A stretch of DNA of 64,000 bases. Origin: Tianweitania sediminis. GTDB taxonomy: Bacteria > Pseudomonadota > Alphaproteobacteria > Rhizobiales > Rhizobiaceae. Under the pieces are notes generated by a model. The model searched no databases. It saw only the letters and a program-made list of their open reading frames with translations, and was not told the origin of the DNA. The position numbers were made by a program, and so were the translations under genes. Below, piece by piece: positions 15,710 through 57,960 of the stretch (the stretch's first letter is position 1; each line of letters opens with the position of its first letter). The stretch spans positions 682,001 through 746,000 of the forward strand of contig NZ_JAGIYY010000001.1 of assembly GCF_017813335.1 (NCBI RefSeq), in the 5' to 3' direction.

Positions 15710-15715
15710 CAGGTC

Positions 15716-39572: not shown

Positions 39573-40649
39573 CTAGGGAAGAACCCTTGCTTCCTTCAAC
39601 TGCCGGAACAGTCCGTCAAACATCTCTTCGGTGTCTTCGCAGTCATGGAAGCCGTGCTTTCGCGCTTTGATCGTCGACATGATCGAATGCTGCGGGATGG
39701 TTGTGCCATGGCGGAAAGTGAAGTCCATGAATTGCCAGTTCGCCACGATTTCCTCATAGCGGTAAGGCTTCAGCCCGTACTTGGCGACAATGCGATCCCA
39801 AACGGGACCCTTGTCGGCCATAACCGTTGCCAGCGAAAACGAATGTGCCACGCCGGGCTCTACGCCGAAGTGGCGTGCCGTCAGCGGCCAGATATTCGCC
39901 CAGGAGAAGCAGTCGCCGTTCGTGATGTTGTAGGTTTCGCCGGCCGCGCGGGCTTCCCGTCCCGCCCAGTCGATTGCCCGTGCGAGCAGGTCCGCATCGG
40001 TCGCTTCCTGGAAGCAGGCTGGGCCGCCCGGAAACCGGAGCGGCTGGTTCATCTCTCGACAAATCGCGGCATAAACACCCAGCGCCGTCACCGCATTCAT
40101 GGGGTTTCCAAGCGCGAAGCCACAAACGATCTGTGGCCTCAGGATCGTGAAAGCATATCCCATGGAGTGACTGCGTTCACGCAAAAGATCTTCTTGATCG
40201 TAATAGAAGTTCGACGCGATGAAGCGCGGGTCGCTCTCCTTGGCAGGGATCTTATAGGTCCCGTGATGAATGCCGTAGGCCTTTGTGCCCTGGAGCAGCG
40301 TGATGTGGCTGACTTCCTGGCCGCTCGCCTCGAGTGCGTCGAGTAGGTTGTTCAGCATCACGACATTTGCGTTGATCTGGGTCGTTGCGTTCCATCCTTT
40401 AACGAGCCCGGCCTCTTCATGGAGTGCAGCGTAGACCACGTGGGTGATCTTGCCTGCGTCTGCGAAGCTCTGGCGAAGGGCCTCAGGAACTTGCAGGTCG
40501 GCGGCCATCCAATCAGCGCTTGTCTCGAAGTCCGGCTTGCGTCGAGAAAGTCCGATTGTTCGCACGTCGCGGTCACCCGAAAACCGTTCAAGTGCAGCGC
40601 GCCCCACCACACCCAGCGCACCGACGATCAGAACAGTCTTCGGAGCCAT
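39573..40649 (-). CDS. PRISE-type SDR (progesterone 5-beta-reductase/iridoid-synthase-like NAD(P)-dependent reductase)
   Basis: 358 aa, longer than classical SDRs. NAD(P)-binding GALGVVGRAAL at 10-20, the atypical catalytic lysine motif LLQGTKAYGIHHG (Lys123), and NFYYDQEDLLRER (Tyr149/150), the residues that define PRISE enzymes. These reduce enones (1,4-reduction) or related carbonyls. It is the last gene of the four-gene minus-strand operon, 6 nt after the SMP-30 gene. The substrate is unknown. Confidence 0.82.
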   Translation of the reverse strand: MAPKTVLIVGALGVVGRAALERFSGDRDVRTIGLSRRKPDFETSADWMAADLQVPEALRQSFADAGKITHVVYAALHEEAGLVKGWNATTQINANVVMLNNLLDALEASGQEVSHITLLQGTKAYGIHHGTYKIPAKESDPRFIASNFYYDQEDLLRERSHSMGYAFTILRPQIVCGFALGNPMNAVTALGVYAAICREMNQPLRFPGGPACFQEATDADLLARAIDWAGREARAAGETYNITNGDCFSWANIWPLTARHFGVEPGVAHSFSLATVMADKGPVWDRIVAKYGLKPYRYEEIVANWQFMDFTFRHGTTIPQHSIMSTIKARKHGFHDCEDTEEMFDGLFRQLKEARVLP

Positions 40650-40655
40650 GGTGCC

Positions 40656-41588
40656 TCAAGCCTCGTGTTCGAGCCGCAAACCGGCGGTAGGCCAGTCCGC
40701 CGTCATCAGCTTGCCCGTGGATGACATCGTCACATAAGCGGTGCGCATGTCTGATCCGCCGAAACAGATGTTTGTTGCGAAAGGATCGGGCGTCTTGATC
40801 GCCTCGATTTTGCTGCCATCTGGCGAAACAACGGTTATCGCGCCGCTGTAGATCGTGGCCACGCAGATGTTTCCGGCTGCATCGACGGCGAGCGAGTCGA
40901 ATCCCTGGTAGCCACCCAGTCCAGCGACAAACCGCCCGCCGTTAGGCGACTGCGGCCACGGAAGTAGTTCCAACTGGCCAGGGCTGGCGATCGTAAACGC
41001 CCAAAGCCGGCAGGTGAATGTCTCCGCCACATAAAGTGTGGCGCCATCGGGCGATAGACCCACCCCGTTGGGGCTCATGATGGGATAAACAACCTCGCGG
41101 ATGAAGGAGCCATCGGCCTTTGCGTAGCAGACGGTCCCGCGGTCCATATCCCGCGGCCGAATCTTTCCATGATCGGTGAAATAGAAGCCGCCATGGGCAT
41201 CAAACACGAGGTCGTTCGGGCCCTTCAACGGGGCTTTGTCGGACGCTGTATAAAGGACCTTCAATTCGCCTGTTTTGAGGTCGAGGCGCTCGATGCGCCC
41301 TCCCGAATAATCGGTCGCCTGACCATGCGGGCGCAGACCAGTCTCGTCCGTTTCATGCCAGTTAAAGCCGCCGTTGTTGCAGATGTAGAGAGCGCCGTCC
41401 GGTCCGACCGCGGCGCCATTCGGTCCGCCGTCAAGTTGAGCGACTACCTCAGTACGGCCGTCTGGATGGCACCGCGTGACAGCGCGGCGGGCAACCTCCA
41501 CCAGGATCACCGAGCCGTCCTTCATCACGACAGGTCCCTCGGGAAAACGCAGCCCCTCAGCCATCGTCTTGAAAAGAACCTCTCCCAT
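40656..41588 (-). CDS. SMP-30/gluconolactonase/LRE-family protein
   Basis: 310 aa six-bladed propeller. Family features: EGPVVMKDGSVILVEV near the N-terminus (metal-binding Glu in F-x-EGP), GPNDLVFDAHGGFYFTD, and ISPDG-type NGVGLSPDGATLYVAE with the catalytic Asp/Asn positions. It probably hydrolyses a lactone in the pathway served by this operon. It lies between the ThDP enzyme gene (29 nt upstream) and the PRISE reductase gene. Confidence 0.87.
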   Translation of the reverse strand: MGEVLFKTMAEGLRFPEGPVVMKDGSVILVEVARRAVTRCHPDGRTEVVAQLDGGPNGAAVGPDGALYICNNGGFNWHETDETGLRPHGQATDYSGGRIERLDLKTGELKVLYTASDKAPLKGPNDLVFDAHGGFYFTDHGKIRPRDMDRGTVCYAKADGSFIREVVYPIMSPNGVGLSPDGATLYVAETFTCRLWAFTIASPGQLELLPWPQSPNGGRFVAGLGGYQGFDSLAVDAAGNICVATIYSGAITVVSPDGSKIEAIKTPDPFATNICFGGSDMRTAYVTMSSTGKLMTADWPTAGLRLEHEA

Positions 41589-41617
41589 GTCTTCCTCCCT
41601 TGCCTGCTGAGTTGCGG

Positions 41618-43327
41618 CTATTCCAGATGGCGTGTGTTCGCGAAGGACAGGCTCGCGAACGAGAAATCCATCGACGTTTCAACATCGATGACGAAGGGGC
41701 GCCCCGTTGCCGCCACCGCTTCTTGGGCTTCGGCCAAGGCTTCAACAAGTCCCACTGCCCCTGTCACCTTGCGGCCGCCGCATCCCATCCCGCGCGCAAT
41801 CGCTGCGTAGTCGAATTCTTCGAAGCTCGTGGCGAAGGGACCGCGGGAATGTTGAGACCACCCGAGTGCATGATTGTTCATCACCACCGCGATGATCGGC
41901 GCCTGCGCTTCAATAGCCGTCATCAAGCCGTTCATGGTCATCGAGAAGCCGCCGTCGCCGGCAAACGCAACAACGGTGGTTTGCGGGTTGAGGAGCTTCT
42001 GCGCCACGGCGGAAGGGATGGCATATCCCATCGGCCCCGCACCCGCTGGCTGGGAGAAACGACCTGTTCCGCGGGCTTGGAAGTAGTGCATCATGAAGAT
42101 GCGGTTTTCCCCCGCGTCGCAGGTGAAGATCGTATCGGGCGGCAGATGCGCTTGAAGCGCCGAAATGATCTCCGGCGCGTGCATGGCACCCGGTTGCGTT
42201 GACTTCGGGTATGCCACGGCGCGAGGAGCCGTCGTGGAAAACCAGTTGCCGCTTTCTCGCTCGTCGGGGACGGCCAGTGCGAGTTGCTGCAAGATTGTGC
42301 CTGCATCTCCGGCGAGAGTGTGATCGACGGGCAGCGTCCAAGACAGGTTGCGGGGTTCGATGTCGATCTGCACGATAACCTGCCTTGACGGGTCCACGAG
42401 TGCAGGATCAGCGCCAACCGTGTCTGAAGCCGACAGCTTTGTTCCCACCGCTAGAACAAGATCGGCTTGCCCAAGGGCGCGGTGTGCTGTTGGATTCCCG
42501 TAGGCGCCGATTGTGCCTGCGGACAAGGGTGACGCCTCGTTGAAGACACCCTTTCCGGCCGGCGATGTGACAACAACAGCGCCCCACGCATTGGCGAAGG
42601 CCTCCAGCGCCTGTTCGGCACCTCCAAGTCGCACCCCGTTACCGGCAATGACCAACGGCCGCTTTGCCTTTGTTAAGGCCTGGAGCGCCTTGTCCATGGG
42701 AGGCACTGCTGGCTCCGCGCGCGCGACAAAGGGCGGGGCTGGGTAGATACGCGGCAAAGCGTCGCCGCCGGCCATTCCTGAAAGCGCGCGCGCTCCGTAG
42801 ATAACCGCAACCGGCCCGGGCTGACCGGTTAATGCATGCTTCAGCGCCAGTTGAGTTGCGATAACGGCAGGGTTGGGCTCATCGGCAGAAAAGACTTCCT
42901 TTGCGACGCCACGGAACGCGGCCCGAGCGTCCCAGCCGCCATATTCGCCGGTGCCCGATTGATAAGGAGCATGCAGCGAGAAGGGCGGTGTATCGGTGAA
43001 ATCCGTCATCAGAAGGAGTGGTGAAGAAGAAAGGCGCGCCTCGATGGTTCCGACCATCCCGTTTCCGAGGATCCAGGGTCCTTGGCCAAGCAGGACACCG
43101 GGCACTCCAGTCATGCGGCCGACGGTCTCTGCCATGATCGCGCCGAGGCTCTCCTCCCGCACGAGCACCGTTTGAATGGCGTCCTGCCGCTTTTCCAAAG
43201 CACCGAAGATCTTTCCCGTGTGGCCGCCGGACAATCCGAAAACGTAGCGAACGCCCGCCGCCACAAGCACATCTACGATGGCATCGGGAGAAGGCACGGG
43301 ATCCGGGTACTGCGGCGAATACGACAT
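41618..43327 (-). CDS. Thiamine-diphosphate-dependent enzyme (acetolactate-synthase-like), copy 1
   Basis: 569 aa from the ATG at 43327, 16 nt after the GntR stop. Three ThDP-enzyme domains: N-terminal Pyr domain with the activating Glu59 (VREESLGAIMAE), a central domain (about 190-325), and the PP domain with GDGGFSMTMNGLMTAIEA...NN, the Mg/ThDP motif. It differs clearly from the second copy. It could be a lyase, a decarboxylase or a C-C hydrolase. The RHEQ-like motif is changed to REES, which argues against a standard acetolactate synthase. Confidence 0.85.
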   Translation of the reverse strand: MSYSPQYPDPVPSPDAIVDVLVAAGVRYVFGLSGGHTGKIFGALEKRQDAIQTVLVREESLGAIMAETVGRMTGVPGVLLGQGPWILGNGMVGTIEARLSSSPLLLMTDFTDTPPFSLHAPYQSGTGEYGGWDARAAFRGVAKEVFSADEPNPAVIATQLALKHALTGQPGPVAVIYGARALSGMAGGDALPRIYPAPPFVARAEPAVPPMDKALQALTKAKRPLVIAGNGVRLGGAEQALEAFANAWGAVVVTSPAGKGVFNEASPLSAGTIGAYGNPTAHRALGQADLVLAVGTKLSASDTVGADPALVDPSRQVIVQIDIEPRNLSWTLPVDHTLAGDAGTILQQLALAVPDERESGNWFSTTAPRAVAYPKSTQPGAMHAPEIISALQAHLPPDTIFTCDAGENRIFMMHYFQARGTGRFSQPAGAGPMGYAIPSAVAQKLLNPQTTVVAFAGDGGFSMTMNGLMTAIEAQAPIIAVVMNNHALGWSQHSRGPFATSFEEFDYAAIARGMGCGGRKVTGAVGLVEALAEAQEAVAATGRPFVIDVETSMDFSFASLSFANTRHLE

Positions 43328-43343
43328 GGGCGTGGCTGTCCGT

Positions 43344-44087
43344 TCAGAGCTTGCGGAGGTTGGCGATGATCTCGTCAGAGCTGCCCGCAATGTCGGCTTG
43401 CATGGCTGCTCGGGCTGCTTCGGGGTCGCGTGCCCGAAATGCTTTCAGCATGAGCACATGGCTGTGCTTTGCTTCGTCTGCCCCGCTTTTCGGCATCTCG
43501 CGGCGTGCGTACAGGGCGTTCAGAAGAGGCCCCATTTGCAGCCATAGCCCTTCGACGATCCTCAGCAGTCTCGGCAAACGCGCTTCCGCACAGACACGCA
43601 GATGAAACTCCTGGTTCCAGATCAGTGCCGACTTAAAATCCAATTCCGCCTTGGATCGGACGAGTTGTTCATGCACCTGTTCCAGATGGAGGATCGCGTC
43701 CCTGTCGATCTTTTTGGCGGCCTCTGCAGCGCTGACCCCCTCAAGGTTGAGGCGGAGGTCACGCAACTCGACGTAGTCTTCGGCTGTGAGCTCGGCCACT
43801 CTGAACGAGCGCCCGGCGATCTGCGTCAGAGCTCCTTCGGCCGCCAGTTGCACAAGCGCCTCGCGCGCGGGCGTCGGACTGATGTTCAACGCCGCAGCGA
43901 GATCCCGGATGTTAAGTTTGGCGCCGGGTGGAAAGCGGCCTGTCATCAAACCGCGACGTAGTTCCTTATAGGCCTCGCTGACAAGGTTCACTCGCGCGAG
44001 ATTGCGCAGACCGTCACCAAATTCTTCTGCGCCTGGATCAAAGTCCGTCTTTGACGCGCTCCAGGCGGCACCTCTTGCACTCGCCAT
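43344..44087 (-). CDS. GntR-family regulator, FCD type
   Basis: 247 aa. Winged HTH at about 35-100 (KLNIRDLAAALNISPTPAREALVQLAAEGAL) and an FCD domain with DLRLNLEGVSAAEAA and WNQEFHLRVCAEA. It is the first gene of the minus-strand operon and divergent from the large plus-strand set, so one regulator sits between both halves of the cluster. A direct repeat in the intergenic region is a candidate binding site. The effector is probably the imported acid. Confidence 0.9.
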   Translation of the reverse strand: MASARGAAWSASKTDFDPGAEEFGDGLRNLARVNLVSEAYKELRRGLMTGRFPPGAKLNIRDLAAALNISPTPAREALVQLAAEGALTQIAGRSFRVAELTAEDYVELRDLRLNLEGVSAAEAAKKIDRDAILHLEQVHEQLVRSKAELDFKSALIWNQEFHLRVCAEARLPRLLRIVEGLWLQMGPLLNALYARREMPKSGADEAKHSHVLMLKAFRARDPEAARAAMQADIAGSSDEIIANLRKL

Positions 44088-44155
44088 CCAAGGCTCCGCT
44101 CTCAGCTTCGACGCGACAGGAATCGCGCAAAGTTCTGCTCGTGTCCAGTTCGTAT

Positions 44156-44185
44156 TTGAAATATCAAATTTCGTATTGAAATATC
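44156..44185. promoter_or_regulatory. Direct repeat TTGAAATATC x2, 20 bp apart, in the divergent GntR promoter region
   Basis: TTGAAATATC occurs at 44156-44165 and 44176-44185, on the same face of the helix. The longer versions CGTATTTGAAATATC and CGTATTGAAATATC extend it. The first copy also forms an inverted repeat TTTGA-AATA-TCAAA. The site lies 41-70 nt before the right-hand ThDP gene and about 70-100 nt before the GntR gene, in an AT-rich island, as expected for an operator. Confidence 0.55.
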
Positions 44186-44225
44186 TCCTTGGCTGTGATT
44201 TTCAGAAGACAGGGAGGAATTCAAG

Positions 44226-45938
44226 ATGGACCAGACGCCTCAGATCGCCGGCCAGGAACCAGTCGCCGTGACCCTCGCCGTCTCGCTGAAGCGGCACGGC
44301 GTTGAAGTTCTTTTTGGCCAAAGTCTGCCAAGCGCGCTTCATCTTGCTGCGCCGGACTTCGGAATGCTGCAGGTCAACTACCGCACCGAGAACTCGGGCG
44401 GTGTGATGGCCGACGGATACGCGCGGATTTCCCGAAAGATCGGAGTCGTGACCGCGCAGAATGGTCCCGCGGCCACGCTCCTCGTTGCGCCCATGGCCGA
44501 GGCCCTGAAAGCTTCAGTGCCCCTCCTGGCAATTGTTCAGGAGGTCAATCGCGATCATACGGACAAGAACGCCTTCCAGGAGTTCGACCACTTTGCCCTG
44601 TTCTCCTCCTGCGCAAAGTGGGTGCGGCGGATCGATGTCCCGTCGCGGGTCGAGGACTATGTCGATATGGCCGTCACTGCAGCGACCACAGGCCGTCCTG
44701 GCCCAGCGGTGCTGCTCTGCCCAGCCGATCTCCTCAACGATCTGCAGCGTCTTGCAGAACCGCGCAGCAGCGAGATGGGTTACTTCCCCTTGGATCGCGT
44801 TTGCCCCGATGCTGAGCGTATTCAGGAGGCGGCTCGGCTTCTGGCTGCTGCCGAGCGGCCCGTCGTCATTGCCGGCGGTGGTGTTCATCTGTCCGGTGCA
44901 ACCGATGAAATCGGCAGACTTCAGGAATTGGCCTGCTTGCCTGTTGGCACAACGAACATGGGCAAAGGCTCCATCGACGAGACGCACGAACTTTCGCTCG
45001 GTGTGCTCGCCAATGCTCTGGGATCAAACTCACCCGCGCGGCACTTGAAAGGCTTTCTGGAAGAAGCCGATGTCGTGCTGCTGATCGGCACGCGAACGAA
45101 CCAGAACGGCACGGACAGCTGGAAGCTCTACCCAAGGGGCGCGACCTTCATCCATCTCGACATCGACGGAATGGAGGTCGGGCGCAATTATGAAGCCGAA
45201 CGGCTCGTCGGCGATGCCAAGCTTGGTTTGCAGGCGCTGATCCGGGCATTGGAAGAAACAGGTTTAGAGTCTCGACGCAGCCGCCGGGCCTCAGTCGTGC
45301 GGGACATTGCCGCCCGCCGTGAGAAGGGTCGCCAAGAGGCGAGCAGCGTCACGGCTTCCTCGTCGCAGCCGCTACGGCCCGAGGCGCTGATGGCCGAGTT
45401 GGATCTTGTTCTGCAGCCTGATGACATCGTCGCCGCGGATGCCAGCTACTCCTCGCTTTGGGTTCTGAACTTCCTGACGGCAAAGAGGGCGGGGCAGCGG
45501 TTCTTGACTCCACGCGGGATCGCCGGGCTGGGCTGGGGGCTACCGCTCGCGCTGGGCGCCAAAGTTGCTGCCATGAACCGCCGGGTTGTCGCAGTAGTGG
45601 GCGACGGTGGCTTCGCGCATACATGGCAGGAGTTGGAAACCGCTCGACGCATGGGGCTGCCTGTCACGGTGATCGTGCTGAACAACGGTATTCTCGGTTT
45701 CCAGAAGCACGCGGAACTCGTGAAGTTTGGTGCGCACACCGTAGCGATCGATTTCGCGCCGGTGGACCATGCGGCCATCGCGCAGGCTACCGGCTGCAAG
45801 GGAGTTCGGATCGAGACCCGCGAAGAATTCGCTCAGGCGCTTCGCGAAGCGCTTTCTTCCGAAACCGCAACCGTGCTGGATGTTATCACTTCGGCGGATG
45901 CATACCCGCCTATCTCGGTCTTCGAAAACAAACTCTGA
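44226..45938 (+). CDS. Thiamine-diphosphate-dependent enzyme (acetolactate-synthase-like), copy 2
   Basis: 570 aa (ribosome site GGGAGGAA). Pyr domain with Glu55 in NYRTENSGGVMADGYAR, a central domain with VIAGGGVHLSGA, and a PP domain with the ThDP motif GDGGFAHTWQELETARRMGLP...NN. It lacks a regulatory-subunit gene beside it and lies in a catabolic context, so biosynthetic acetolactate synthase is unlikely. It heads the long plus-strand operon with a Liv-type importer. Confidence 0.88.
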   Translation: MDQTPQIAGQEPVAVTLAVSLKRHGVEVLFGQSLPSALHLAAPDFGMLQVNYRTENSGGVMADGYARISRKIGVVTAQNGPAATLLVAPMAEALKASVPLLAIVQEVNRDHTDKNAFQEFDHFALFSSCAKWVRRIDVPSRVEDYVDMAVTAATTGRPGPAVLLCPADLLNDLQRLAEPRSSEMGYFPLDRVCPDAERIQEAARLLAAAERPVVIAGGGVHLSGATDEIGRLQELACLPVGTTNMGKGSIDETHELSLGVLANALGSNSPARHLKGFLEEADVVLLIGTRTNQNGTDSWKLYPRGATFIHLDIDGMEVGRNYEAERLVGDAKLGLQALIRALEETGLESRRSRRASVVRDIAARREKGRQEASSVTASSSQPLRPEALMAELDLVLQPDDIVAADASYSSLWVLNFLTAKRAGQRFLTPRGIAGLGWGLPLALGAKVAAMNRRVVAVVGDGGFAHTWQELETARRMGLPVTVIVLNNGILGFQKHAELVKFGAHTVAIDFAPVDHAAIAQATGCKGVRIETREEFAQALREALSSETATVLDVITSADAYPPISVFENKL

Positions 45939-45955
45939 AGGCCGGGAGCGCTCGC

Positions 45956-46840
45956 GTGGAGATCTTGATCCAGCTCGTTCTATCCGGAATTCTGCTCGGC
46001 GGCGTTTATGCCCTTGCAGCTCTGGGTTTGAACCTCATCTTCGGCGTGGCGAAGATCATCAATTTCGCCCATGGCGAGTTTCTGATGCTCGGCATGTACG
46101 CCGGCTTCTGGCTGATGACGCTGACCGGCATCAACCCCTACTATGGCGCGCCGTTGATCGCCGTCGCCTTCTTCATCCTCGGAGCTCTCTTCTACACGGG
46201 GGTAATGCGGTTCACCATCTACAAGCCTGAACTGACTCAGGTGTTCGTCACGCTGGGCTTGTCGATCGCGCTGCAGAACCTCGCCCTGATGTTCTGGCAG
46301 GCCGATTACCGCACCATTCAAACCATGCCTCCGGGGTATGCTTCGCTCATGGTCGGCAACATCAACCTGCCAACCGACCGTGTCATCGCCTTCGGCTTCG
46401 CCGTGGCCATTTTGACCGCGATCATCGTATTCCTGAAAACCACCTTCACAGGACGCGCCATCGAAGCGGTTTCGCAGGACCTCATGTCAGCGCGTCTGAT
46501 GGGGATCTCGCCTCAGAAGATCTTTCTCCTGACCTTCGGGCTTGGCATCGCCATCACAGGTGTAGCAGGCGGCGTTCTCATTCCCTCCTTCTATGCGTTT
46601 CCATCCGTTGGCTCCTTCTTCGTGTTGGTTGCTTTCGTGGTTGTCGTGCTTGGCGGACTTGGGAGCGTAACCGGCACAATCGTCGGAGGCCTCACCCTCG
46701 GCATAATCGAGACGCTCGTTGGCTACTTCACGCCGGACCTGAAGGAAGCAACTCACTTCGTCCTGTTGATCTTGCTTCTTGCCGTCCGGCCGCACGGGCT
46801 GCTGGGCATCAAGGGCGCTGAGAAGGAGACGCTTAAATGA
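45956..46840 (+). CDS. livH: Branched-chain-amino-acid-type ABC permease (LivH)
   Basis: 294 aa from a GTG at 45956 with GGGAG upstream. Sequence before it in the same frame is antisense-like and overlaps the ThDP gene. LivH features: SGILLGGVYALAALGLNLIFGVAKIINFAHGEFLML and the GRAIEAVSQDLMSARLMGI EAA-like loop. About eight membrane helices. LivHM permeases also serve transporters for aromatic acids, amides and other carboxylates. Confidence 0.9.
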   Translation: MEILIQLVLSGILLGGVYALAALGLNLIFGVAKIINFAHGEFLMLGMYAGFWLMTLTGINPYYGAPLIAVAFFILGALFYTGVMRFTIYKPELTQVFVTLGLSIALQNLALMFWQADYRTIQTMPPGYASLMVGNINLPTDRVIAFGFAVAILTAIIVFLKTTFTGRAIEAVSQDLMSARLMGISPQKIFLLTFGLGIAITGVAGGVLIPSFYAFPSVGSFFVLVAFVVVVLGGLGSVTGTIVGGLTLGIIETLVGYFTPDLKEATHFVLLILLLAVRPHGLLGIKGAEKETLK

Positions 46841-47856
46841 GCCGCCTCTCGGGCTATTTCACCTGGAAGCGTGCCGACCTGGCTTGGGCGCTGCTGCTTC
46901 TTGTTTGCACCCTTGGGTTGCCGTTCGCGATTTCAAACGACTACTACGTGAACGTCCTTGTGCTCATGTTTCTCTACGCGGGCATGGCATCGGCTTGGAA
47001 CATCATTGGCGGAATGGCGGGGCAGTTCTCGCTGGGCCACACCGCCTTTGTCGGCGTCGGCGCTTATACGTCGACGCTTCTTTACAACTACGCCGGCGTC
47101 TCACCGTGGATTGGTATGATAGCGGGCGGTTTGATCTCGATGGTCCTCGCCGTGATCATCGCTTTCCCGGCATTTCGGATGCGCGGCGTCTTCTTTGCCA
47201 TGGCAACATTGGCGTTTGGCGAGACGGTGCGCATCCTGCTCATGGCGTCCCGCAAGTACATCGACGTCCCCTACGGTCTTTCGATCAACTATGAGCCCGG
47301 CCTCTCCCGCATGATCTTCGAGGAACGCACCAGCTATGCCTTGCTGACTGGCGGCTTCCTGATTCTGGTGACAATTGCCGCCTTCGTGATCTCACGAAGC
47401 TATATCGGCGCATATCTGCGGGCGATCCGCGATAGCGAGGAAGCGGCGGTCGCCTCGGGCATTGCCATGCGGCGCTACAAGATGATTGCTCTGCTGATCT
47501 CCGCCTTTTTTACGTCGATTGGCGGAACGCTGCTGGCTCAGTACGTCCTTTACATTGAGCCCACATCCGTCTTCAACATGGCCATTTCTGTGGACCTGCC
47601 GCTGATGGCGCTGCTTGGCGGAATCGGAACCATTGCCGGGCCGATCATCGGAACGGCCATCGCGCTCCCGCTCCGGGACATCCTGCTCGAAACCTTCGGG
47701 CAATCCGCACCTGGCTTGCATCTTGTCATTTACGGCATCGCGCTCATCGTGATCGTCATCCTGCTCCCGAACGGGCTGATCGGCGGGGTTCGCTCGCTGC
47801 GTAACCGGTTCACTTCCAAGCCGAAGCCTCAGCCAGTTCCAGAGACAGCGCCATGA
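46837..47856 (+). CDS. livM: Branched-chain-amino-acid-type ABC permease (LivM)
   Basis: 339 aa, ATGA overlap with livH. LivM pattern: MASAWNIIGGMAGQFSLGHTAFVGVGAYTS and the coupling loop LRAIRDSEEAAVASGIAMRRYK. About nine membrane helices. It forms the permease pair with LivH. Confidence 0.9.
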   Translation: MSRLSGYFTWKRADLAWALLLLVCTLGLPFAISNDYYVNVLVLMFLYAGMASAWNIIGGMAGQFSLGHTAFVGVGAYTSTLLYNYAGVSPWIGMIAGGLISMVLAVIIAFPAFRMRGVFFAMATLAFGETVRILLMASRKYIDVPYGLSINYEPGLSRMIFEERTSYALLTGGFLILVTIAAFVISRSYIGAYLRAIRDSEEAAVASGIAMRRYKMIALLISAFFTSIGGTLLAQYVLYIEPTSVFNMAISVDLPLMALLGGIGTIAGPIIGTAIALPLRDILLETFGQSAPGLHLVIYGIALIVIVILLPNGLIGGVRSLRNRFTSKPKPQPVPETAP

Positions 47857-48593: not shown

Positions 48594-49305
48594 GGTCAGC
48601 AACCTTCATGCCGGCTACGGAGACGCAGAAGTCCTATTCGGTGTCGATCTGAAAGTGCAGCCGGGGGAGATCGTTGCCATCGTTGGCTCCAACGGTGCCG
48701 GTAAAACAACGCTGCTCCGCGCAGTGTCAGGAATCCTGAAGCCGACCTCGGGAAGCATCCGCTTCAAGGGCAAGGAAATGGTTGGCAAGCCGACCCATGA
48801 GATGGTGGAACAGGGCCTGATCATGGTGCCTGAAGGGCGCCGTCTTTTTCCACGGATGTCGGTGCGCCGGAACCTGGAGATTGGCGCCTATTCCAAGCGC
48901 GCCAGACCCCATCTGACGGAGCGCCTGGAATATGTCTATGAACTCTTTCCGATTTTGAAGGAAAGAGCTGAGCAGCTTGGCGGTACCCTTTCAGGGGGCC
49001 AACAACAGATGTGCGCAATTGCGCGCGGGTTGGTAGCAACGCCTGAAGTCCTGATGCTCGACGAGGTCTCCCTCGGTTTGGCTCCGGTGATGATCTCGAG
49101 GGTGTACGACGCAATCCGTACCATCCGTGACCTTGGCGTCACGCTGCTGCTGGTCGAACAAAATGTCAATCAGGCCCTGTCGATCGCCGATCGAGCCTAC
49201 GTCATCCAGCAGGGCCAGATCGCGTTGTCCGGGACGGGCGCGGAGTTGCAGGGTAATGAGGAGGTGCGTCGCATCTACCTTGGACTGAGTTCAACGGAGG
49301 AGTAA
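48586..49305 (+). CDS. livF: Branched-chain-amino-acid-type ABC ATPase (LivF)
   Basis: 239 aa from the ATG at 48586, overlapping the livG stop by 8 nt. LivF hallmarks: VSNLHAGYGDAEVLFGVDL, Walker A GSNGAGKT, VPEGRRLFPRMSVRRNLEIGA, signature LSGGQQQM, and VLMLDEVSLGLAP. With LivG it powers the LivHM permease. Confidence 0.92.
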   Translation: MLEVSNLHAGYGDAEVLFGVDLKVQPGEIVAIVGSNGAGKTTLLRAVSGILKPTSGSIRFKGKEMVGKPTHEMVEQGLIMVPEGRRLFPRMSVRRNLEIGAYSKRARPHLTERLEYVYELFPILKERAEQLGGTLSGGQQQMCAIARGLVATPEVLMLDEVSLGLAPVMISRVYDAIRTIRDLGVTLLLVEQNVNQALSIADRAYVIQQGQIALSGTGAELQGNEEVRRIYLGLSSTEE

Positions 49306-49309
49306 TGCA

Positions 49310-50587
49310 ATGACCATCGACAGACGAACTTTCGGAAAACTGGTCGCCGCCACAGCAGGCGCATCCGCAATCTCCATGCCCTTTGTTCGCACGGCAAGTG
49401 CGGATGAAGTCGCCAAGCTTGGCGTTCTTTTGCCGCTGTCCGGCCCCCTCGCGTCGCTCGGCAACGATGTGATGCGCGGGTTCGAACTTGCGAAGAACCT
49501 GGTGAACGAAGAAGGCGGCGTATTTGGAAAGCCGGCGGAACTGGTTGTGGTCGACGTCCCGTCCTCTACCGAGGCGACGTCTCAGGCGACGCGCTTGATC
49601 ACTTCGGAACGCGTGAAGGTGATCATGGGCTCTTACGCCTCCTCGATCTCTTTTGCCGCTAGTCAGGTCGCCGAGCGGAATAAGGTCATCTACTTCGAAC
49701 AGGGTGCCGTTGCCAACGACATCACCTCACGCGGCTTCAAACATCTGTTTCGGTTCATCTATCCAGCCTCGGAGCTGGGCGGCGGCGCGGCCAAGTTCAT
49801 GCTGGAGACCGTTGCACCGCAACTCGGCATCGAGAACAGCGCGCTGAAGGTTGCACTTCTCTACGAAGACAGCTCCTACGGCACGGCAGTGGGCGAAAGC
49901 GCTCGTGCGGTGCTAGCTGAAGCAGGCGTGAACGTGGTGGATGCCACGTCCTACAGCTACAAGACCACCGATCTCTCTTCGATGGTGCAGCGGTACAAGC
50001 AGTTGCAGCCCGATGTGCTGATCGTTTGCCAGTACACGCCTGATGGCATCCTGTTTTGGCGCCAAGCTCGCGAAGCAGGGCTTGCCGTCAAGGCGATGAT
50101 AGGCAACGGCGGCGCGCACAACGTCAACGAGTTCGCCGAAGCTCTTGGGGATGACGTCAACGGCATCTTCAACGCAGGCACCTCGGTGTACATCGACAAG
50201 GACGGCCTTGTTCCTGAAACCGCTGCTTTGTTTGAACGCTTTCACACGGAGCACGAGAAACGCTACGATGGCCGTAAGCCGTCCGCGCACACCGGCATGG
50301 GCTTCAACGCCATGTGGACGGTGCTCAAGGACATCCTTCCGGCAGCTGGTTCCATGGACACACAGGCGATCCGCGACGCTGCGCTCGCCCTGGACAAGCC
50401 TGTTGGCTCCACCATTGTCGGCTGGGGCGTGAAGTTCGACCCTGAGACCCAGAACAACACGCGCGCTTTCCCGACCTACGATCAGTGGCAAGGCAAGACC
50501 ATCAAAACTGTGGCACCTGAACGGTTCGCGATTGCAGAAGTGAAGGCCATTCCTTTGCCGACGTGGGGCAAGCGCGGCGACATTTGA
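49310..50587 (+). CDS. Liv-type ABC periplasmic substrate-binding protein
   Basis: 425 aa, type I periplasmic-binding fold. The N-terminus TIDRRTFGKLVAATAGASAIS carries a twin-arginine-like signal (RR-T-F) with cleavage after about residue 31. The mature part has LGVLLPLSGPLASLGNDVMRGFELA and later KVALLYEDSSYGTAVGE. At over 390 mature residues it is longer than LivK and similar to binding proteins for aromatic or amide substrates. It starts 4 nt after livF and is followed by a strong hairpin. Confidence 0.9.
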   Translation: MTIDRRTFGKLVAATAGASAISMPFVRTASADEVAKLGVLLPLSGPLASLGNDVMRGFELAKNLVNEEGGVFGKPAELVVVDVPSSTEATSQATRLITSERVKVIMGSYASSISFAASQVAERNKVIYFEQGAVANDITSRGFKHLFRFIYPASELGGGAAKFMLETVAPQLGIENSALKVALLYEDSSYGTAVGESARAVLAEAGVNVVDATSYSYKTTDLSSMVQRYKQLQPDVLIVCQYTPDGILFWRQAREAGLAVKAMIGNGGAHNVNEFAEALGDDVNGIFNAGTSVYIDKDGLVPETAALFERFHTEHEKRYDGRKPSAHTGMGFNAMWTVLKDILPAAGSMDTQAIRDAALALDKPVGSTIVGWGVKFDPETQNNTRAFPTYDQWQGKTIKTVAPERFAIAEVKAIPLPTWGKRGDI

Positions 50588-50600
50588 CGGCTTGAACATC

Positions 50601-50624
50601 TGACCGGGGGTGATCCCCCGGTCA
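50601..50624 (+). promoter_or_regulatory. Strong intercistronic hairpin after the binding-protein gene
   Basis: A perfect 10-bp stem TGACCGGGGG / CCCCCGGTCA with loop TGAT, 13 nt after the binding-protein stop. No T-run follows, so it more likely stabilises the upstream mRNA or attenuates the downstream dehydrogenase genes than terminates fully. Confidence 0.65.
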
Positions 50625-50651
50625 TCACCTCGCAACTTGCCAGGAACAGGT

Positions 50652-51701
50652 ATGCTCGCGCTGAGGAAAACAGCACCCGCGCCCGGTCTCGAACTGCTTA
50701 ACACTTCGCAGCCGGACAAATTGGCGGAGAACGAAGTCATGATCGCCGTGGCTGCCGCCGGTGTTTGCGGATCGGATCTTCACGTCGACGACTGGTCTGC
50801 GGGCTATGAGTTCATGGTCCCGCTGTTGCCGGTCACCCTCGGACACGAGTTTTCTGGACGTGTTGTGGCGGTGGGCTCCGCCGTACGCTCCGTCTCGGTT
50901 GGACAGCGTGTAACGGCTTGGCCATCGGCGCCATGTGGTGTCTGCCGTGCCTGCAAAACTGGACGCCCCCAGAACTGCTCGGACAAGCGAACTGTTGGTC
51001 TTTATCGAGACGGCGCCTTTGCCACCCATACAGTAGCGCGGGAAAGCGGCGTTTTCCCGCTTCCGGAGTCAGTGGACTTCGAACTTGCAGCGCTTGTCGA
51101 GCCGCTGTGCGTCGGCGCCCGCGCCGTTAACGTAGGCGAGATCCGGCAGGGCCAGAAAGTTGTCGTTCTCGGCCCTGGTACGATCGGACAGGCCATTGCG
51201 CTGTTTGCCCGGTTGTCGGGCGCAATCAGCGTGGCAGTTGCGGGCTTCGACGATGGGTCCAGACTGTCGGTGCTCAACAAGCTTGGCTTCGAAGACACGT
51301 TCGATCTCGCGGAAGCAGGATCGGCCGACGAACTGTTTCAGCGCTTCGGAAACGCAGACGCCGTATTCGAAGCAACAGGACACGCATCGAGCATCGCGGA
51401 CGGACTGCGTCTCCTGCGAAACGAGGGTACCCTTGTTCTGACTGGTATCCACGCCGAACCAACCACGATCAACCTTCTTGAGATCGTCAGACGCAAGCTG
51501 CAGATCCGAGGAAGCCATGGCTCGCGGCGCGAAGACTGGGCTCGCGTGATCGACACGCTCGAGCATCGCGGCGAGGAGTTCAGGGGCATGATCACCCACC
51601 GCTTGCCGTTGTCGCGCGCGCTCGAGGGCTTCGCCCTGGCCAGGGAGCGCAGCGCATCCAAGGTCCTCATTCTTCCTGATGAAAGGGAAGCGCAATCATG
51701 A
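50652..51701 (+). CDS. Zinc-dependent alcohol dehydrogenase (MDR superfamily, threonine/sorbitol dehydrogenase-like)
   Basis: 349 aa from the ATG at 50652. Catalytic-zinc ligands Cys39 (GVCGSDLH) and His65-Glu66 (LGHEFSG), and the structural-zinc lobe with four Cys (Cys95, 98, 101, 109). Rossmann domain VVVLGPGTIGQAIALFA. It oxidises a secondary or polyol-type alcohol with NAD(P). It precedes the SDR gene, overlapping it by 4 nt. Confidence 0.9.
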   Translation: MLALRKTAPAPGLELLNTSQPDKLAENEVMIAVAAAGVCGSDLHVDDWSAGYEFMVPLLPVTLGHEFSGRVVAVGSAVRSVSVGQRVTAWPSAPCGVCRACKTGRPQNCSDKRTVGLYRDGAFATHTVARESGVFPLPESVDFELAALVEPLCVGARAVNVGEIRQGQKVVVLGPGTIGQAIALFARLSGAISVAVAGFDDGSRLSVLNKLGFEDTFDLAEAGSADELFQRFGNADAVFEATGHASSIADGLRLLRNEGTLVLTGIHAEPTTINLLEIVRRKLQIRGSHGSRREDWARVIDTLEHRGEEFRGMITHRLPLSRALEGFALARERSASKVLILPDEREAQS

Positions 51702-52465
51702 GCAAGGTCGAAAAGCCGGGCCGCGTTGCCTTTGTCACCGGTGCCGCGCGCGGCATCGGGGCGGCGCTGGCGGAACGCCTTGCGCGGGATGGTCTGCGGG
51801 TGATTGCTGCCGACGTTCTCGGAAGCGTGGACGAGACAGCCGCAACACTGCGGTCCAGCGGGCTGGCTGTGGAAGCAGCCCGGATCGATCTTGGCGATCT
51901 GCCTGCCCTCGAACCCTTCATGCGTGACCTGATCGACCGCGTGGGCCGGATTGATGTCTTGGTCAACAACGCCGGTATCTCGCCCAAGCATGAAGGGATC
52001 CGGGCGGCCGTTGATGAAACCGAACTCGGTGAGTGGCAGCGCGTAATCGATATCAATCTCACCGCCTGCTTTCTGCTCGTTAAGGCCAGCCTCCCTTCCA
52101 TGAAGGCCAACAAATGGGGCCGGATCGTCAACATGGCCTCGCAGGCCGGCAGGACGAAGTCCATGGTTGCAGGCTCCCATTACGCCGCTTCCAAGGCCGG
52201 CCTCATTGGCTTCACGCGCACCTTGGCGGGAGAAGTCGGACCCTTCGGGATCACCGCCAACTGCATCGCTCCGGGGCGGATCGATACGCCCATGGCGTCC
52301 GAAGCGGGAAGCGAGGTCAATGCCCGCTACGTGAGCACGATACCGGTGGGACGCATCGGCACGCCGGATGATGTTGGCGCCGCCGTTTCTTACCTTGCGT
52401 CTGACGCTGCGGGTTTCGTGACTGGGGTCTGCCTGGACCTCAACGGCGGCCACTTCATGGCTTAA
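51698..52465 (+). CDS. Short-chain dehydrogenase/reductase (classical SDR)
   Basis: 255 aa. Coenzyme motif VTGAARGIGAALAERL (TGxxxGxG), LVNNAGIS, catalytic Ser in NMASQAGR and the YAASK tetrad residues, then PGRIDTPMAS. It probably uses NAD(H) because an acidic residue (Asp39) follows beta-2 (RVIAADVLG). It likely acts in sequence with the zinc dehydrogenase on a diol, keto-acid or sugar acid. Confidence 0.9.
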   Translation: MSKVEKPGRVAFVTGAARGIGAALAERLARDGLRVIAADVLGSVDETAATLRSSGLAVEAARIDLGDLPALEPFMRDLIDRVGRIDVLVNNAGISPKHEGIRAAVDETELGEWQRVIDINLTACFLLVKASLPSMKANKWGRIVNMASQAGRTKSMVAGSHYAASKAGLIGFTRTLAGEVGPFGITANCIAPGRIDTPMASEAGSEVNARYVSTIPVGRIGTPDDVGAAVSYLASDAAGFVTGVCLDLNGGHFMA

Positions 52466-52475
52466 GGACCAGAGT

Positions 52476-53465
52476 ATGACAGCAACAATGAAGCACGTAG
52501 TGCTAAAGGCGCCTGGCCCGGCAACCAACATGTATGTGGCGGAAGGTCCTCGACCACAGCCTGGCCCAGGCGAGGTGCTCATCAAGGTTCGTGCCGCTGG
52601 GGTCAACCGTCCTGACATCAGCCAGAGGCTGGGAAACTACCCACCGCCAGCAGGTGTGACGGAGATCATGGGCTTGGAGGTCGCCGGTGAGGTCGAGCAG
52701 GTCGGCGACGGCGTGGACGCATGGCAGCCTGGCGATAAAGTCTGCGCCCTGGTGGCAGGTGGTGGCTACGCCGAGTATGTCGCGGCCCCGGCCCCCCAGG
52801 TCCTGCGCGTTCCAAATGGCATGGACTTCACTACAGCGGCAGCGATTCCAGAAACCTACTTCACCGTTTGGACCAACGTCTTCCAGTCCGGCGCACTGAA
52901 GCCGGGTGAAAGCATCCTGGTTCATGGCGGAGCATCAGGAATCGGCACGACCGCGATCCGCTTGGCACATGCGCTTGGATCGAGGGTTTATGCCACCGTC
53001 AGTTCTGGGGAAAAGGCGGCAGTCTGTCGTTCTCTCGGCGCCACGGAAGCCATCGACTACCATCAGGAAAAATTCGCGGACCGTATCCTGGAGCTGACCG
53101 GAGGGGGCGGCGTCGATGTTATCCTGGACATGCGCGGGGGCCCCTTCTTTGCGGAGAACATGCGTGCAATCGCGACCCGCGGGCGCATCGTCCATATCGC
53201 GTCTCTCGCGGGGCGCGAGGTCACGCTCGACATACCAACTCTCATGCGCAAGCGAGTAACGGTGACCGGGTCGACCCTTCGCGCTCGTTCTGTCGAAGAG
53301 AAGGGGGAAATCGCATGCGAATTGCGCGACCGCGTATGGCCGCTGTTCGACGCAGGCACGATTGCTCCCGAAATTTTCCGTGTCATGCCCATGAGCGAGG
53401 TGATCGCGGCTCACGAATTGGTTGAGTCAAACACGCATATCGGAAAGGTCGTACTGGCGATGTGA
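52476..53465 (+). CDS. Zinc-independent MDR, NAD(P)H:quinone oxidoreductase (PIG3-like)
   Basis: 329 aa, starts 10 nt after the SDR stop. The N-terminal GroES-like domain lacks zinc ligands (AAGVNRPDISQRLGNYPPP). NADPH-binding SILVHGGASGIGTTAIRLAHALG, and SLAGREVTLDIPTLMRKRVTVTGSTLRAR matches the PIG3/quinone oxidoreductase branch. It may reduce an enone or quinone-like intermediate. Confidence 0.88.
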   Translation: MTATMKHVVLKAPGPATNMYVAEGPRPQPGPGEVLIKVRAAGVNRPDISQRLGNYPPPAGVTEIMGLEVAGEVEQVGDGVDAWQPGDKVCALVAGGGYAEYVAAPAPQVLRVPNGMDFTTAAAIPETYFTVWTNVFQSGALKPGESILVHGGASGIGTTAIRLAHALGSRVYATVSSGEKAAVCRSLGATEAIDYHQEKFADRILELTGGGGVDVILDMRGGPFFAENMRAIATRGRIVHIASLAGREVTLDIPTLMRKRVTVTGSTLRARSVEEKGEIACELRDRVWPLFDAGTIAPEIFRVMPMSEVIAAHELVESNTHIGKVVLAM

Positions 53466-53563
53466 GAGGCGCCAGCGTTTTGGGTGATCGTCTCCCTCGG
53501 GGATCCGTTCACCCCGCATAAGAGGCCGGCAGCAACCGCGGGCCAAACAAAGGGAGTGAGATC

Positions 53564-54523: not shown

Positions 54524-54527
54524 GCGA

Positions 54528-55001
54528 ATGATTGCCTTGCGCAAACGCCTGGTCCCGCTCGCCACGCTTCTTGCCGTGGCGGGCGCATGGGCAGTGGCCG
54601 GATCACTGGACCTGTGGACCATCGATGGTCCTGGTCCCGGCCTCTTGCCGAAAATCGCGTTGATGGTCACGGCAATCGTCGCGTTGATCCTCTTGATCCG
54701 TCCCGACCCAGTTCCGGAAAGCGAAACAGAGGAAGTCGAGCGGTATCCTCGAAGCTTTGTTGTCTACAGCCTCGCCTGTGCGTTCATAGCTGTTTCCGTG
54801 CCTTGGCTGGGTTTTGTGCTGCCAGGTCTTGTCTGTGTTTGCGCCATTCTGCGCTTTGCAGAAGACAGATCCTGGTTCGTTTCTCTCGGCTATGCTGTCG
54901 CGCTGCTGGCAGTAATCGTGCTGCTCTTTGGAACACTGCTGAACGTTCAGTTCCCCGATGGACCGCTCGAGGACGTTCTCCAGTCGAACGGGCTGCTTTG
55001 A
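54528..55001 (+). CDS. tctB: TTT-family small membrane subunit (TctB), second set
   Basis: 157 aa, four membrane helices. Typical start RLVPLATLLAVAGAWAVAGSLDLWTIDGPGPGLLPKI and the central loop RPDPVPESETEEVERYPR. Starts 4 nt after tctC and ends 2 nt before tctA. Confidence 0.85.
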   Translation: MIALRKRLVPLATLLAVAGAWAVAGSLDLWTIDGPGPGLLPKIALMVTAIVALILLIRPDPVPESETEEVERYPRSFVVYSLACAFIAVSVPWLGFVLPGLVCVCAILRFAEDRSWFVSLGYAVALLAVIVLLFGTLLNVQFPDGPLEDVLQSNGLL

Positions 55002-55003
55002 AC

Positions 55004-56500
55004 ATGTTGGATGGTCTGCTTCAAGGCTTCGCGGTCCTCTTGACCTTCGAGAATCTGGCTTTCTGTCTCCTTGGTGCTTTCCTCGGCACCATCGTAGGAG
55101 TGCTTCCAGGTCTCGGTCCCACGGCCACGATCGCCCTGCTCTTGCCGATCTCTCTTAAGATGGACGTGACGGGGGCGATCATCCTGCTTTCGGGCATCTA
55201 CTACGGCGTAGCCTATGGTGGCACGATCACGTCCGTGCTGATGCGGATCCCAGGTGAAGCCTCGTCTGTGGTGACTTGCCTGGACGGTTACGAGATGGCG
55301 CGCAAGGGACGAGCCGGCGCGGCCCTGGGCATCGCAGCGATCGGCTCCTTCGTGGCAGGCACCTTTGGCATCCTCGGCATCACCTTGATCGCACCGCTTT
55401 TAGCGGAGGTCGTGCTGTCCTTTGGACCGGCCGAATACGCGGCCATGATGTTCGCCGGCCTTTGCCTCATCATGTTCTTCGCACAGTCTGGCGTCTTGAA
55501 GGCCCTCCTGATGGCCGCGATCGGCCTGACCCTCGGCACAATCGGGCTGGATCCGATTTCAAGTACCCCGCGGCTGACATTTGGACTGACGGACCTGATC
55601 GATGGCATCGATATCGCCACACTGGCGATCGGTCTTTTCGGTATTTCCGAATTGCTCATGCTCGCGCGCAACAGGCCTGACAGCGGCGCGGTTCTCACCC
55701 CGCCGAACCGCCTTTTCGCCTTTCTTCCGAACCGGGAAGAAAGCCGGCGTAGCGTCATGCCCATTGCCCGTGGCTCGGTGCTCGGTTTTCTTGTCGGCCT
55801 TTTGCCTGGTGGTGGAGCGGTTCTCGCGTCCTTTCTTTCTTACGCAATCGAGCGCAAGCTTTCCAAGCACCCGGAGGAGTTTGGCCGTGGTGCCGTGGAG
55901 GGACTCGCAGGCCCTGAAGCCGCAAACAATTCCGGCACCGCCGGCGCCTTTGTGCCGATGCTGACCTTGGGGATCCCGTCCAATGCCGTGACGGCTCTTC
56001 TCCTTGGCGCCTTTCTGATCCACGGCGTCGTTCCCGGGCCGCTCATCATGGAACAGCATCCTGAGGTCTTCTGGGGCGTGATTGCTTCCATGTATGTCGG
56101 GAACGTCATCCTTGTTCTGTTGAACGTGCCGCTGATTGGCTTGTTTGTGAGAGCGCTGGATGTGCCGCGCGCTTATCTTGCGACCATGATTCTGATGGTC
56201 TGCGTCATCGGCGTCTATTCGTCGAACCTGGCGCCCTTCGACATTGCGCTAACCATCGCCTTCGGTTTCGTCGGTTACGCCTTTCGACGCGCCAACTATG
56301 ACCTTGCCCCGCTGATCCTCGCCTTTGTTCTGGGGCCTACCTTTGAACGATCCCTTCGCCAACTCCTGCTCATCGAGGACGGTGATCTGATCGGCGGCCT
56401 TTGGAACAGCCCAATCGCGCTAACTCTCGTCACACTCGGTGTTGTTCTCTTGGTGAGCGGTCTTGCCGGCCTGGGCCGGAGCTATTCGCATGAGGACTGA
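55004..56500 (+). CDS. tctA: TTT-family large permease subunit (TctA), second set
   Basis: 498 aa from the ATG at 55004, about 12 helices. Signatures GAFLGTIVGVLPGLGPTATIALLLP and GLLPGGGAVLASFLSYAIE, with MLTLGIPSNAVTALLL replacing the more common GIPGS. In-frame sequence before 55004 is the tctB gene in another frame. It is the last gene of the plus-strand block and converges on nirK. Confidence 0.92.
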   Translation: MLDGLLQGFAVLLTFENLAFCLLGAFLGTIVGVLPGLGPTATIALLLPISLKMDVTGAIILLSGIYYGVAYGGTITSVLMRIPGEASSVVTCLDGYEMARKGRAGAALGIAAIGSFVAGTFGILGITLIAPLLAEVVLSFGPAEYAAMMFAGLCLIMFFAQSGVLKALLMAAIGLTLGTIGLDPISSTPRLTFGLTDLIDGIDIATLAIGLFGISELLMLARNRPDSGAVLTPPNRLFAFLPNREESRRSVMPIARGSVLGFLVGLLPGGGAVLASFLSYAIERKLSKHPEEFGRGAVEGLAGPEAANNSGTAGAFVPMLTLGIPSNAVTALLLGAFLIHGVVPGPLIMEQHPEVFWGVIASMYVGNVILVLLNVPLIGLFVRALDVPRAYLATMILMVCVIGVYSSNLAPFDIALTIAFGFVGYAFRRANYDLAPLILAFVLGPTFERSLRQLLLIEDGDLIGGLWNSPIALTLVTLGVVLLVSGLAGLGRSYSHED

Positions 56501-57911: not shown

Positions 57912-57943
57912 GGTCTCATTTACTTTCTGGATTGGAAGGACGC

Positions 57944-57957
57944 GGGGCCGAAGCCCC
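57944..57957 (-). promoter_or_regulatory. UUCG-tetraloop hairpin between pseudoazurin and nirK
   Basis: In the minus-strand RNA, GGGGC-UUCG-GCCCC forms a 5-bp stem with a very stable UUCG loop just after the pseudoazurin stop. No U-run follows. It may let pseudoazurin mRNA accumulate above nirK or act as a partial terminator. Confidence 0.55.
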
Positions 57958-57960
57958 TTA

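Follow-up and report, generated by a model that had tools for sequence, protein, structure and literature searches.

Several described systems resemble parts of a gene cluster that we analyzed in Tianweitania sediminis. The cluster lies at positions 39573-56500 of a 64-kb stretch of DNA (positions 682001-746000 of contig NZ_JAGIYY010000001.1, from a genome of 4.7 Mb). We refer to the whole stretch as the window, and coordinates below are window positions. The cluster encodes two putative thiamine diphosphate (ThDP)-dependent enzymes, ThDP1 and ThDP2. In the cyclohexane-1,2-dione hydrolase pathway of Azoarcus 22Lin, alcohol dehydrogenations come before C-C cleavage. That pathway and the cluster both have a ThDP enzyme of one superfamily, but the cluster has two such enzymes, a lactonase, and a Liv-type importer. 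Both enzymes share with IlvB, the large subunit of acetolactate synthase, a fold of three ThDP domains, the catalytic Glu, and the cofactor motif. In contrast to IlvB, no regulatory subunit (IlvN-type) of acetolactate synthase was found among the cluster genes scanned, and neither enzyme reached the cut-off of 538 bits for the biosynthetic acetolactate synthase TIGR00118 (ThDP2, 320 bits; ThDP1, 224 bits). The lactonase of the cluster, a protein of the SMP-30 family, matches PDB entries 7ris ('Beta-propeller lactonase') and 8djf ('Gluconolactonase') with 345 bits over 300 residues. We take 7ris to be the broad-specificity lactonase from Rhodopseudomonas palustris of Hall et al. 2023. Lastly, a PRISE protein of the cluster shares PF22917 with plant progesterone 5-beta-reductase and iridoid synthase and matches their solved structures with 146-131 bits; unlike the plant enzymes, it is bacterial and accessory.

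The original prediction, made from the sequence without database searches, had proposed that the cluster is one unit under one GntR regulator and a catabolic route not matched by any known one. We found that twelve of the genes form a core whose order and divergent arrangement are the same in five genomes, and that each of the five clusters has a palindromic, operator-like site between its divergent halves. The cluster seems to be a rare, transferable gene set of a few marine and soil bacteria and to serve the import and breakdown of one small hydroxylated molecule.

Conservation of a twelve-gene core

The cluster is real. Each of its sixteen genes is an open reading frame in the predicted place and on the predicted strand, and the predicted family identities were confirmed. 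On the minus strand, the operon reads GntR-ThDP1-SMP30-PRISE, and its genes are 16, 29 and 6 bp apart. It encodes a GntR/FCD regulator (43344..44087; PF00392, PF07729), ThDP1, a ThDP-dependent C-C bond enzyme (41618..43327; three ThDP domains), an SMP-30/gluconolactonase-type beta-propeller lactonase (40656..41588; SGL PF08450, 164 bits), and a PRISE-like candidate NAD(P)H-dependent 1,4-enone reductase (39573..40649; PF22917, 65 bits against a cut-off of 27). GntR had been described as standing between two halves. The halves do diverge, and GntR itself is gene 1 of the left operon.

The plus-strand set is ThDP2-LivH-LivM-LivG-LivF-LivK-ZnDH-SDR-QOR-TctC-TctB-TctA. Its genes are separated by at most 22 bp or overlap slightly, except that 98 bp, the widest gap in the right half, precede TctC. 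ThDP2 (44226..45938) belongs to the PRK06112 'acetolactate synthase catalytic subunit' subfamily (NF004772). Next come a LivH-type ABC permease with a GTG start (45956..46840; NCBIfam UrtB/LivH matches were under cut-off), a LivM-type permease (46837..47856; its plasmid orthologues are annotated as permease), LivG-type and LivF-type ABC ATPases (47853..48593 and 48586..49305; assigned from annotated orthologues), and a LivK-type periplasmic binding protein (49310..50587; PF13458). These are followed by a Zn-dependent alcohol dehydrogenase like polyol and threonine dehydrogenases (ZnDH; 50610..51701; PF08240, PF00107; 149-147 bits to sorbitol and threonine dehydrogenases), a FabG-like SDR oxidoreductase (51698..52465; PF13561, 197 bits), and a PIG3-family quinone/enone oxidoreductase (QOR; 52476..53465; TIGR02824, 450 bits against a cut-off of 297). 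A complete tripartite tricarboxylate transporter ends the set (TctC, TctB and TctA at 53564-54523, 54528-55001 and 55004-56500; PF03401, PF07331 and PF01970). The five oxidoreductases or lactonases that had been counted are thus ZnDH, SDR, QOR, PRISE, and SMP-30.

The original prediction called for a search for orthologous clusters, and we found four. Six peptides from ThDP1, which detect close relatives only, were scanned across 84,980 species genomes and identified three loci in two metagenome-assembled genomes (MAGs) of Hoeflea. Among plasmids, 25 of 72,556 records matched ThDP1 at E 1e-50, and two of the matches exceeded 60% identity: one on pRR4-35_1 of Pseudohalocynthiibacter aestuariivivens and one on a plasmid of Sulfitobacter dubius. 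We refer to the clusters in the window, Hoeflea MAG-81, Hoeflea BRH_c9, and these two plasmids as type i. Each of the Hoeflea MAGs has its cluster in two pieces, on different contigs, which we compared separately.

The order SMP30-ThDP1-GntR, diverging from ThDP2-LivHMGFK-ZnDH-SDR-QOR, is the same in the window and in all four other clusters. Compared to the window, the twelve core proteins are 69-86% identical in Hoeflea and 53-78% identical in the Rhodobacterales. All twelve are present in each of the four. Identities in the left half are 60-80% for SMP-30, 62-75% for ThDP1 (one copy partial), and 53-71% for GntR. In the right half they are 70-80% for ThDP2, 77-86% for LivH, 73-79% for LivM, 65-78% for LivG (one copy partial), 73-84% for LivF, 76-84% for LivK, 55-71% for ZnDH, 58-72% for SDR, and 60-77% for QOR. 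LivK and LivH rank among the best-conserved core proteins, which points to the same ligand across the clusters.

QOR marks the right end of the core. Past it, one Hoeflea genome has an SDR gene and frames that look, on inspection by eye, like an acyl-CoA dehydrogenase and a ligase, the other has different genes, including one for an arsenite oxidase large subunit, and Pseudohalocynthiibacter has insertion sequence (IS) elements. The left end is sharp in Hoeflea MAG-81, where a tRNA synthetase gene comes directly after PRISE.

One regulator and an operator-like site

GntR and ThDP2 diverge from a region of 138 bp. GntR has a winged helix-turn-helix and an FCD domain, and there is a palindromic site in its own promoter region. 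Its true start is probably 20-30 codons downstream of the called start, because homology begins only at residue 26-34. The operator-like site (44153..44187) consists of the palindrome TTTGAAATATCAAA (44155-44168) and a less perfect second copy 20 bp on. A palindrome close to TTTGATATATCAAA (13 of 14 positions) was found in each of the five aligned divergent regions. The second copy is 38 bp on in Sulfitobacter; it scores 13/14 in both Rhodobacterales and 10-11 in Hoeflea. In the window, the right arm of the second copy has decayed (TTGAAATATCTC). The divergent region is otherwise little conserved, except for a GGGAGGA stretch before ThDP2.

We scanned both strands of the window for the site, allowing up to two mismatches. 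The operator-like site was the sole place that matched (0.15 matches expected), and no such site was found before TctC. Since the gene order is conserved and every one of the five clusters has the site in its divergent region, the predicted control of both halves by one GntR regulator is well supported.

The two ThDP enzymes

ThDP1 and ThDP2 are 28.5% identical to each other, in agreement with the claim of two non-identical ThDP enzymes that lack a regulatory subunit. ThDP2 passes the PRK06112 model (903 bits; cut-off 673) and ThDP1 does not (183 bits). Among the best 25 of its 56 NCBIfam matches, ThDP1 reached no cut-off; the top match scored 258 bits against a cut-off of 539. The model for IolD, the inositol-type trihydroxycyclohexane-1,2-dione hydrolase, was not among these, nor among the best 25 of 53 matches for ThDP2. 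The best PDB matches of ThDP2 are plant acetolactate synthases (207 bits), and the nearest PDB relative of ThDP1 is BbmA (172 bits). Cyclohexane-1,2-dione hydrolase matches ThDP2 with 141 bits and ThDP1 with 79 bits and is the nearest relative of neither. Predicted structures of the two enzymes had mean pLDDT (predicted local distance difference test) values of 46 and 48 and were not used.

The 'REES' stretch of ThDP1 had been read as a changed motif in the Pyr domain. Our alignment weakens this reading. The Arg and the Glu in the third position are invariant in all 13 aligned sequences (window included), so that a Glu is at the catalytic position in every row, and the residue just before it is what varies (E, H, D or S). 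The catalytic-position Glu (E59), D458-G459-G460 and N484-N485 are invariant in the ThDP1 alignment. Active ThDP enzymes of the decarboxylase/AHAS superfamily have a catalytic Glu in their Pyr domain, and their PP domain carries GDG-X-NN. Both enzymes in the window carry the Glu and the GDG...NN cofactor motif, and therefore 'REES' does not represent a lost catalytic residue.

More distant relatives of ThDP1 are in varied contexts that revealed no substrate. We also observed relatives (34-38% identical) on haloarchaeal plasmids; those of Natrialba, Haloferax and Halorussus have an M24 peptidase gene within ~10 kb.

Accessory genes

The sixteen genes had been predicted to act as one unit. The twelve-gene core bears this out, and PRISE (shared by Hoeflea and the window) and TctCBA (shared by Sulfitobacter and the window, in a different order) are accessory and outside the core. 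PRISE is 72-73% identical in the two Hoeflea clusters and is absent from both Rhodobacterales cluster stretches that were compared. The protein contains GTKAYG and NFYY, presumably the catalytic Lys and Tyr motifs. In the Sulfitobacter cluster, two SDR-like pieces (22858-23386 of its stretch) follow SMP-30, in the place of PRISE.

A search of the two Hoeflea genomes at E 1e-40, which had no positive control, did not find TctC. The same two genomes did yield QOR, and the stretches beside QOR had no Tct match. TctC was also not found on the 41.7-kb Pseudohalocynthiibacter stretch. In Sulfitobacter, QOR is followed by TctA-TctB-TctC, the reverse of the gene order in the window. In a search of plasmids (66 records at E 1e-30), the best match to TctC of the window was the copy from the Sulfitobacter cluster (52.9%, 333 bits); the next was 38.2% identical (174 bits). 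TctA of the Sulfitobacter cluster is only 36% identical to that of the window, and the best plasmid matches to TctA of the window (53-55%; best 8 of 541 records) are in other organisms. These matches indicate that, in the window and Sulfitobacter, the cluster and the binding component belong together, and that the permeases do not have recent common ancestry.

Distribution and mobility

The cluster is found in 2 of the 18 genomes of the Hoeflea genus group. In a search of relatives (101 genomes, its own included; E 1e-60), three genomes matched, and the other two matches were 34-35% identical. Neither of the two same-genus genomes listed had a match. At E 1e-80, relatives of ThDP1 were found in 4 of 385 genomes of the class, including the source genome, and the others were 40-46% identical. 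Of the two plasmids that carry the cluster, one is typed as conjugative and the other as non-mobilizable. Because of its patchy distribution and the two plasmid copies, we think that the cluster may behave as a mobile accessory trait.

The wider PRK06112 family

The original prediction held that the cluster matches no known route. Among the literature matches listed, we found no published description of the cluster or of PRK06112. However, its right half has relatives in a broader set of PRK06112 clusters. Relatives of ThDP2 are on 157 plasmid records (E 1e-90), and the copies from Sulfitobacter, Neorhizobium, Shinella and Agrobacterium fabrum also pass the PRK06112 cut-off (886-1000 bits). 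We distinguished at least four gene settings. Besides type i, these are type ii, GntR diverging from ZnDH-QOR-ThDP2-LivKHMGF-SDR-AroE-GMC (Sinorhizobium, Neorhizobium, Pacificitalea, Salipiger and Paracoccus, the last without ZnDH by annotation); type iii, CoA-transferases-ThDP2-DhaK-DhaL (Azospirillum and Shinella); and type iv, aminotransferase-ThDP2 with GntR and an SDR gene (A. fabrum and Mesorhizobium).

We built a tree of 16 proteins of the ThDP2 family. All five copies from type-i clusters fall into one clade (support 100/99), and types ii and iii form another (100/99). These two clades and a long, uncertain Rhodococcus row meet in one unresolved fork. Type iv is placed with a copy from Agrobacterium vitis (100/100).

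ThDP2 matches were present in 14 of the 385 class genomes at E 1e-150, including the source genome. None of the 13 others had a type-i cluster, and several of the stretches compared end at contig ends. One of the 13 was like type ii and lacked ZnDH and QOR. An aminotransferase like that of type iv was near ThDP2 in four (41-53% identical) and, at 26-31%, in a fifth.

Type-ii clusters, for which we found no characterization, share with type i a PRK06112-type ThDP enzyme (58-62% identical to ThDP2 of the window in three clusters), GntR, a PIG3-type QOR, a Liv ABC transporter, a FabG-like SDR and, outside Paracoccus, ZnDH. In contrast to type i, they have no SMP-30, PRISE, Tct, or orthologue of ThDP1. 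They have a shikimate-dehydrogenase-like gene and a GMC oxidoreductase of their own, and their LivK is only 36-37% identical to that of the window. Of 42 plasmid records that matched ZnDH at E 1e-60, 31 were from Sinorhizobium. Among the 20 matches listed, the two best were the type-i copies, and the third best, on Cupriavidus pBB1, was outside such a cluster. Types i and ii appear to derive, as two variants, from a single ancestral set. On pSymA of Sinorhizobium meliloti R28 (9000-21624 of the stretch), several type-ii genes (GntR, QOR, LivMG, and GlcD) are each matched by two adjoining pieces, which looks like frame-shifting.

Clues to the ligand

A GNGG stretch of LivK aligns with GPEG of the leucine-binding protein and with GDG of 3ip5 and 3td9. 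LivK has Gly opposite the Glu of the leucine-binding protein and Asn opposite the Asp of 3ip5 and 3td9. In relatives that bind amino acids, this acidic residue holds the amino group of the ligand. Since LivK lacks it, LivK probably does not bind an alpha-amino acid. Relatives of SMP-30 were found in three kinds of context: one has Liv transporters and a muconolactone-isomerase gene, another has an AtuA-family gene and Tct, and the third has PRISE, a CaiB gene, and Liv. The residue change in LivK, the kinship of SMP-30 to solved lactonases, and the contexts of its relatives together favor a carboxylic acid, a lactone, or a hydroxylated alicyclic compound as the ligand.

We considered degradation of TRIS, since a LivK that is 39.8% identical is on a plasmid of an Acidovorax strain from TRIS-acetate-phosphate medium. 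We dropped this idea because the published TRIS cluster, as given in the portion of PMC10848231 that was available, has a different gene set.

A proposed route and its alternatives

Based on the gene content, its conservation and coherence, the operator-like site, and the intact catalytic motifs, we infer repression, a ligand class, and a set of reactions and their order, as follows. The GntR/FCD protein would bind the palindromic site in the divergent promoter region and repress both operons. The substrate or an intermediate would relieve repression of GntR-ThDP1-SMP30 (plus PRISE) and ThDP2-LivHMGFK-ZnDH-SDR-QOR (plus TctCBA). With the help of TctCBA in the window, the Liv ABC system would import a small hydroxylated acid, lactone or polyol rather than an alpha-amino acid. 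ZnDH and SDR would oxidize hydroxyls to carbonyls, QOR (together with PRISE in clusters that have it) would reduce a conjugated enone, and SMP-30 would hydrolyze a lactone. Both ThDP enzymes would make or break a C-C bond beside a carbonyl, giving central metabolites, and the step would most likely be cleavage of an alpha-ketol, a 1,2-diketone or a 2-keto acid. We give an even chance to the general proposal, that the cluster is a horizontally spread, self-contained catabolic unit in which GntR-repressed uptake is combined with oxidation, lactone opening, and ThDP-dependent C-C chemistry. A more specific version is possible and is offered tentatively. It is that the route is undescribed, that the PRK06112 enzyme and ThDP1, as a new subfamily, act on the same carbon skeleton, and that the unit, partly plasmid-borne, is passed among Alphaproteobacteria of marine and soil habitats. 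Once dehydrogenation had taken place and the lactone had been opened, one enzyme would cleave an alpha-ketol or diketone, and its partner would cleave a second C-C bond.

Several observations weigh against the proposal. Repression of both operons by GntR is deduced from the position of a motif, and both the window and Hoeflea have an imperfect second copy of the site. The core of the palindrome is also found, with at most one mismatch, at seven further places in the genome. We inspected three of these (two loci), and one adjoins a GntR paralogue that is 44% identical to GntR of the cluster; this suggests that the site suits this family of regulators. The ThDP2 orthologue of Pseudohalocynthiibacter reads SN in place of NN. 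Acyl-CoA-type and muconolactone-isomerase contexts that lack ThDP1 also hold relatives of SMP-30, and the lactone of SMP-30 may therefore lie off the main path. Finally, the ThDP chemistry may be carboligation instead of cleavage.

The last point can be put as a specific alternative, in which ThDP2 is a carboligase like acetolactate synthase, joining an acetyl unit derived from pyruvate to an aldehyde from the upstream dehydrogenases, and SDR reduces the acyloin. The plant enzymes at the top of its PDB matches (207 bits) fit this, as does the AFQE motif kept in the ThDP2 family, a motif counted toward acetolactate-synthase-like carboligation. The type-iv setting, where PRK06112 is with an SDR gene and an aminotransferase like glutamate-1-semialdehyde aminomutase (the gene near ThDP2 in four or, more distantly, five of the 13 class genomes), fits an aldehyde acceptor. 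However, a catabolic cluster would gain little by consuming pyruvate. In addition, the stretch after NN is LG(F/Y)QKHAE in 11 of 16 PRK06112 rows, with near-variants in the other five, and acetolactate synthases are unlike this. We consider this alternative unlikely. More doubtful is a route for a cyclic 1,2-diol or cyclitol of the cyclohexane-1,2-dione-hydrolase type, in which ZnDH and SDR make a 1,2-dione, a ThDP enzyme opens the ring hydrolytically, and SMP-30 opens a lactone. The enzyme set fits, and both ThDP enzymes have the hydrolase among their PDB homologues, but it is outscored by acetolactate synthase (207 bits) and by BbmA (172 bits).

The gene settings of other PRK06112 enzymes suggest a route from a branched polyol or a triose, with release of a dihydroxyacetone-like triose by a ThDP enzyme. 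DhaK and DhaL come directly after PRK06112 in type iii (Azospirillum and Shinella), and the type-ii clusters of Salipiger and Paracoccus are near an annotated dihydroxyacetone kinase, transketolase or glycerol dehydrogenase. Type-i clusters have no kinase, and type iii has three CoA-transferase genes that are absent here, which makes this route quite improbable. The CoA-transferase/DhaKL context of type iii also gave the idea that ThDP2 is a 2-hydroxyacyl-CoA lyase (PMC7176365). We did not carry it forward because the type-i core lacks a CoA enzyme and ThDP2 has acetolactate-synthase-like motifs. It is hardly credible that two unrelated pathways are adjacent by chance. PRISE and TctCBA are variable add-ons, as that would predict, but chance juxtaposition of the core is contradicted by the gene order and the divergent operator-like site common to Hyphomicrobiales and Rhodobacterales.

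The copies of ThDP2 relatives that were checked belong to PRK06112, a subfamily known only as 'acetolactate synthase'. A substrate for the cluster would give PRK06112 a testable catabolic role and would also establish a second ThDP subfamily, as yet without a name. Conservation of the operon pair, the operator-like site and LivK makes the substrate open to direct ligand screening of the binding proteins.

Neighboring genes

To the right of the cluster, 56775-60973 encodes a copper nitrite reductase (TIGR02376, 356 bits) and an NnrS protein (PF05940). We considered a link between the cluster and denitrification and dropped it; the neighbor in Hoeflea is the arsenite oxidase large subunit and not napA. 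Elsewhere in the window, at 11253-17236, a family III CoA-transferase, an HMG-CoA-lyase-type enzyme (PRK05692, 351 bits), and a transporter that contains TctA make up a second small catabolic set.

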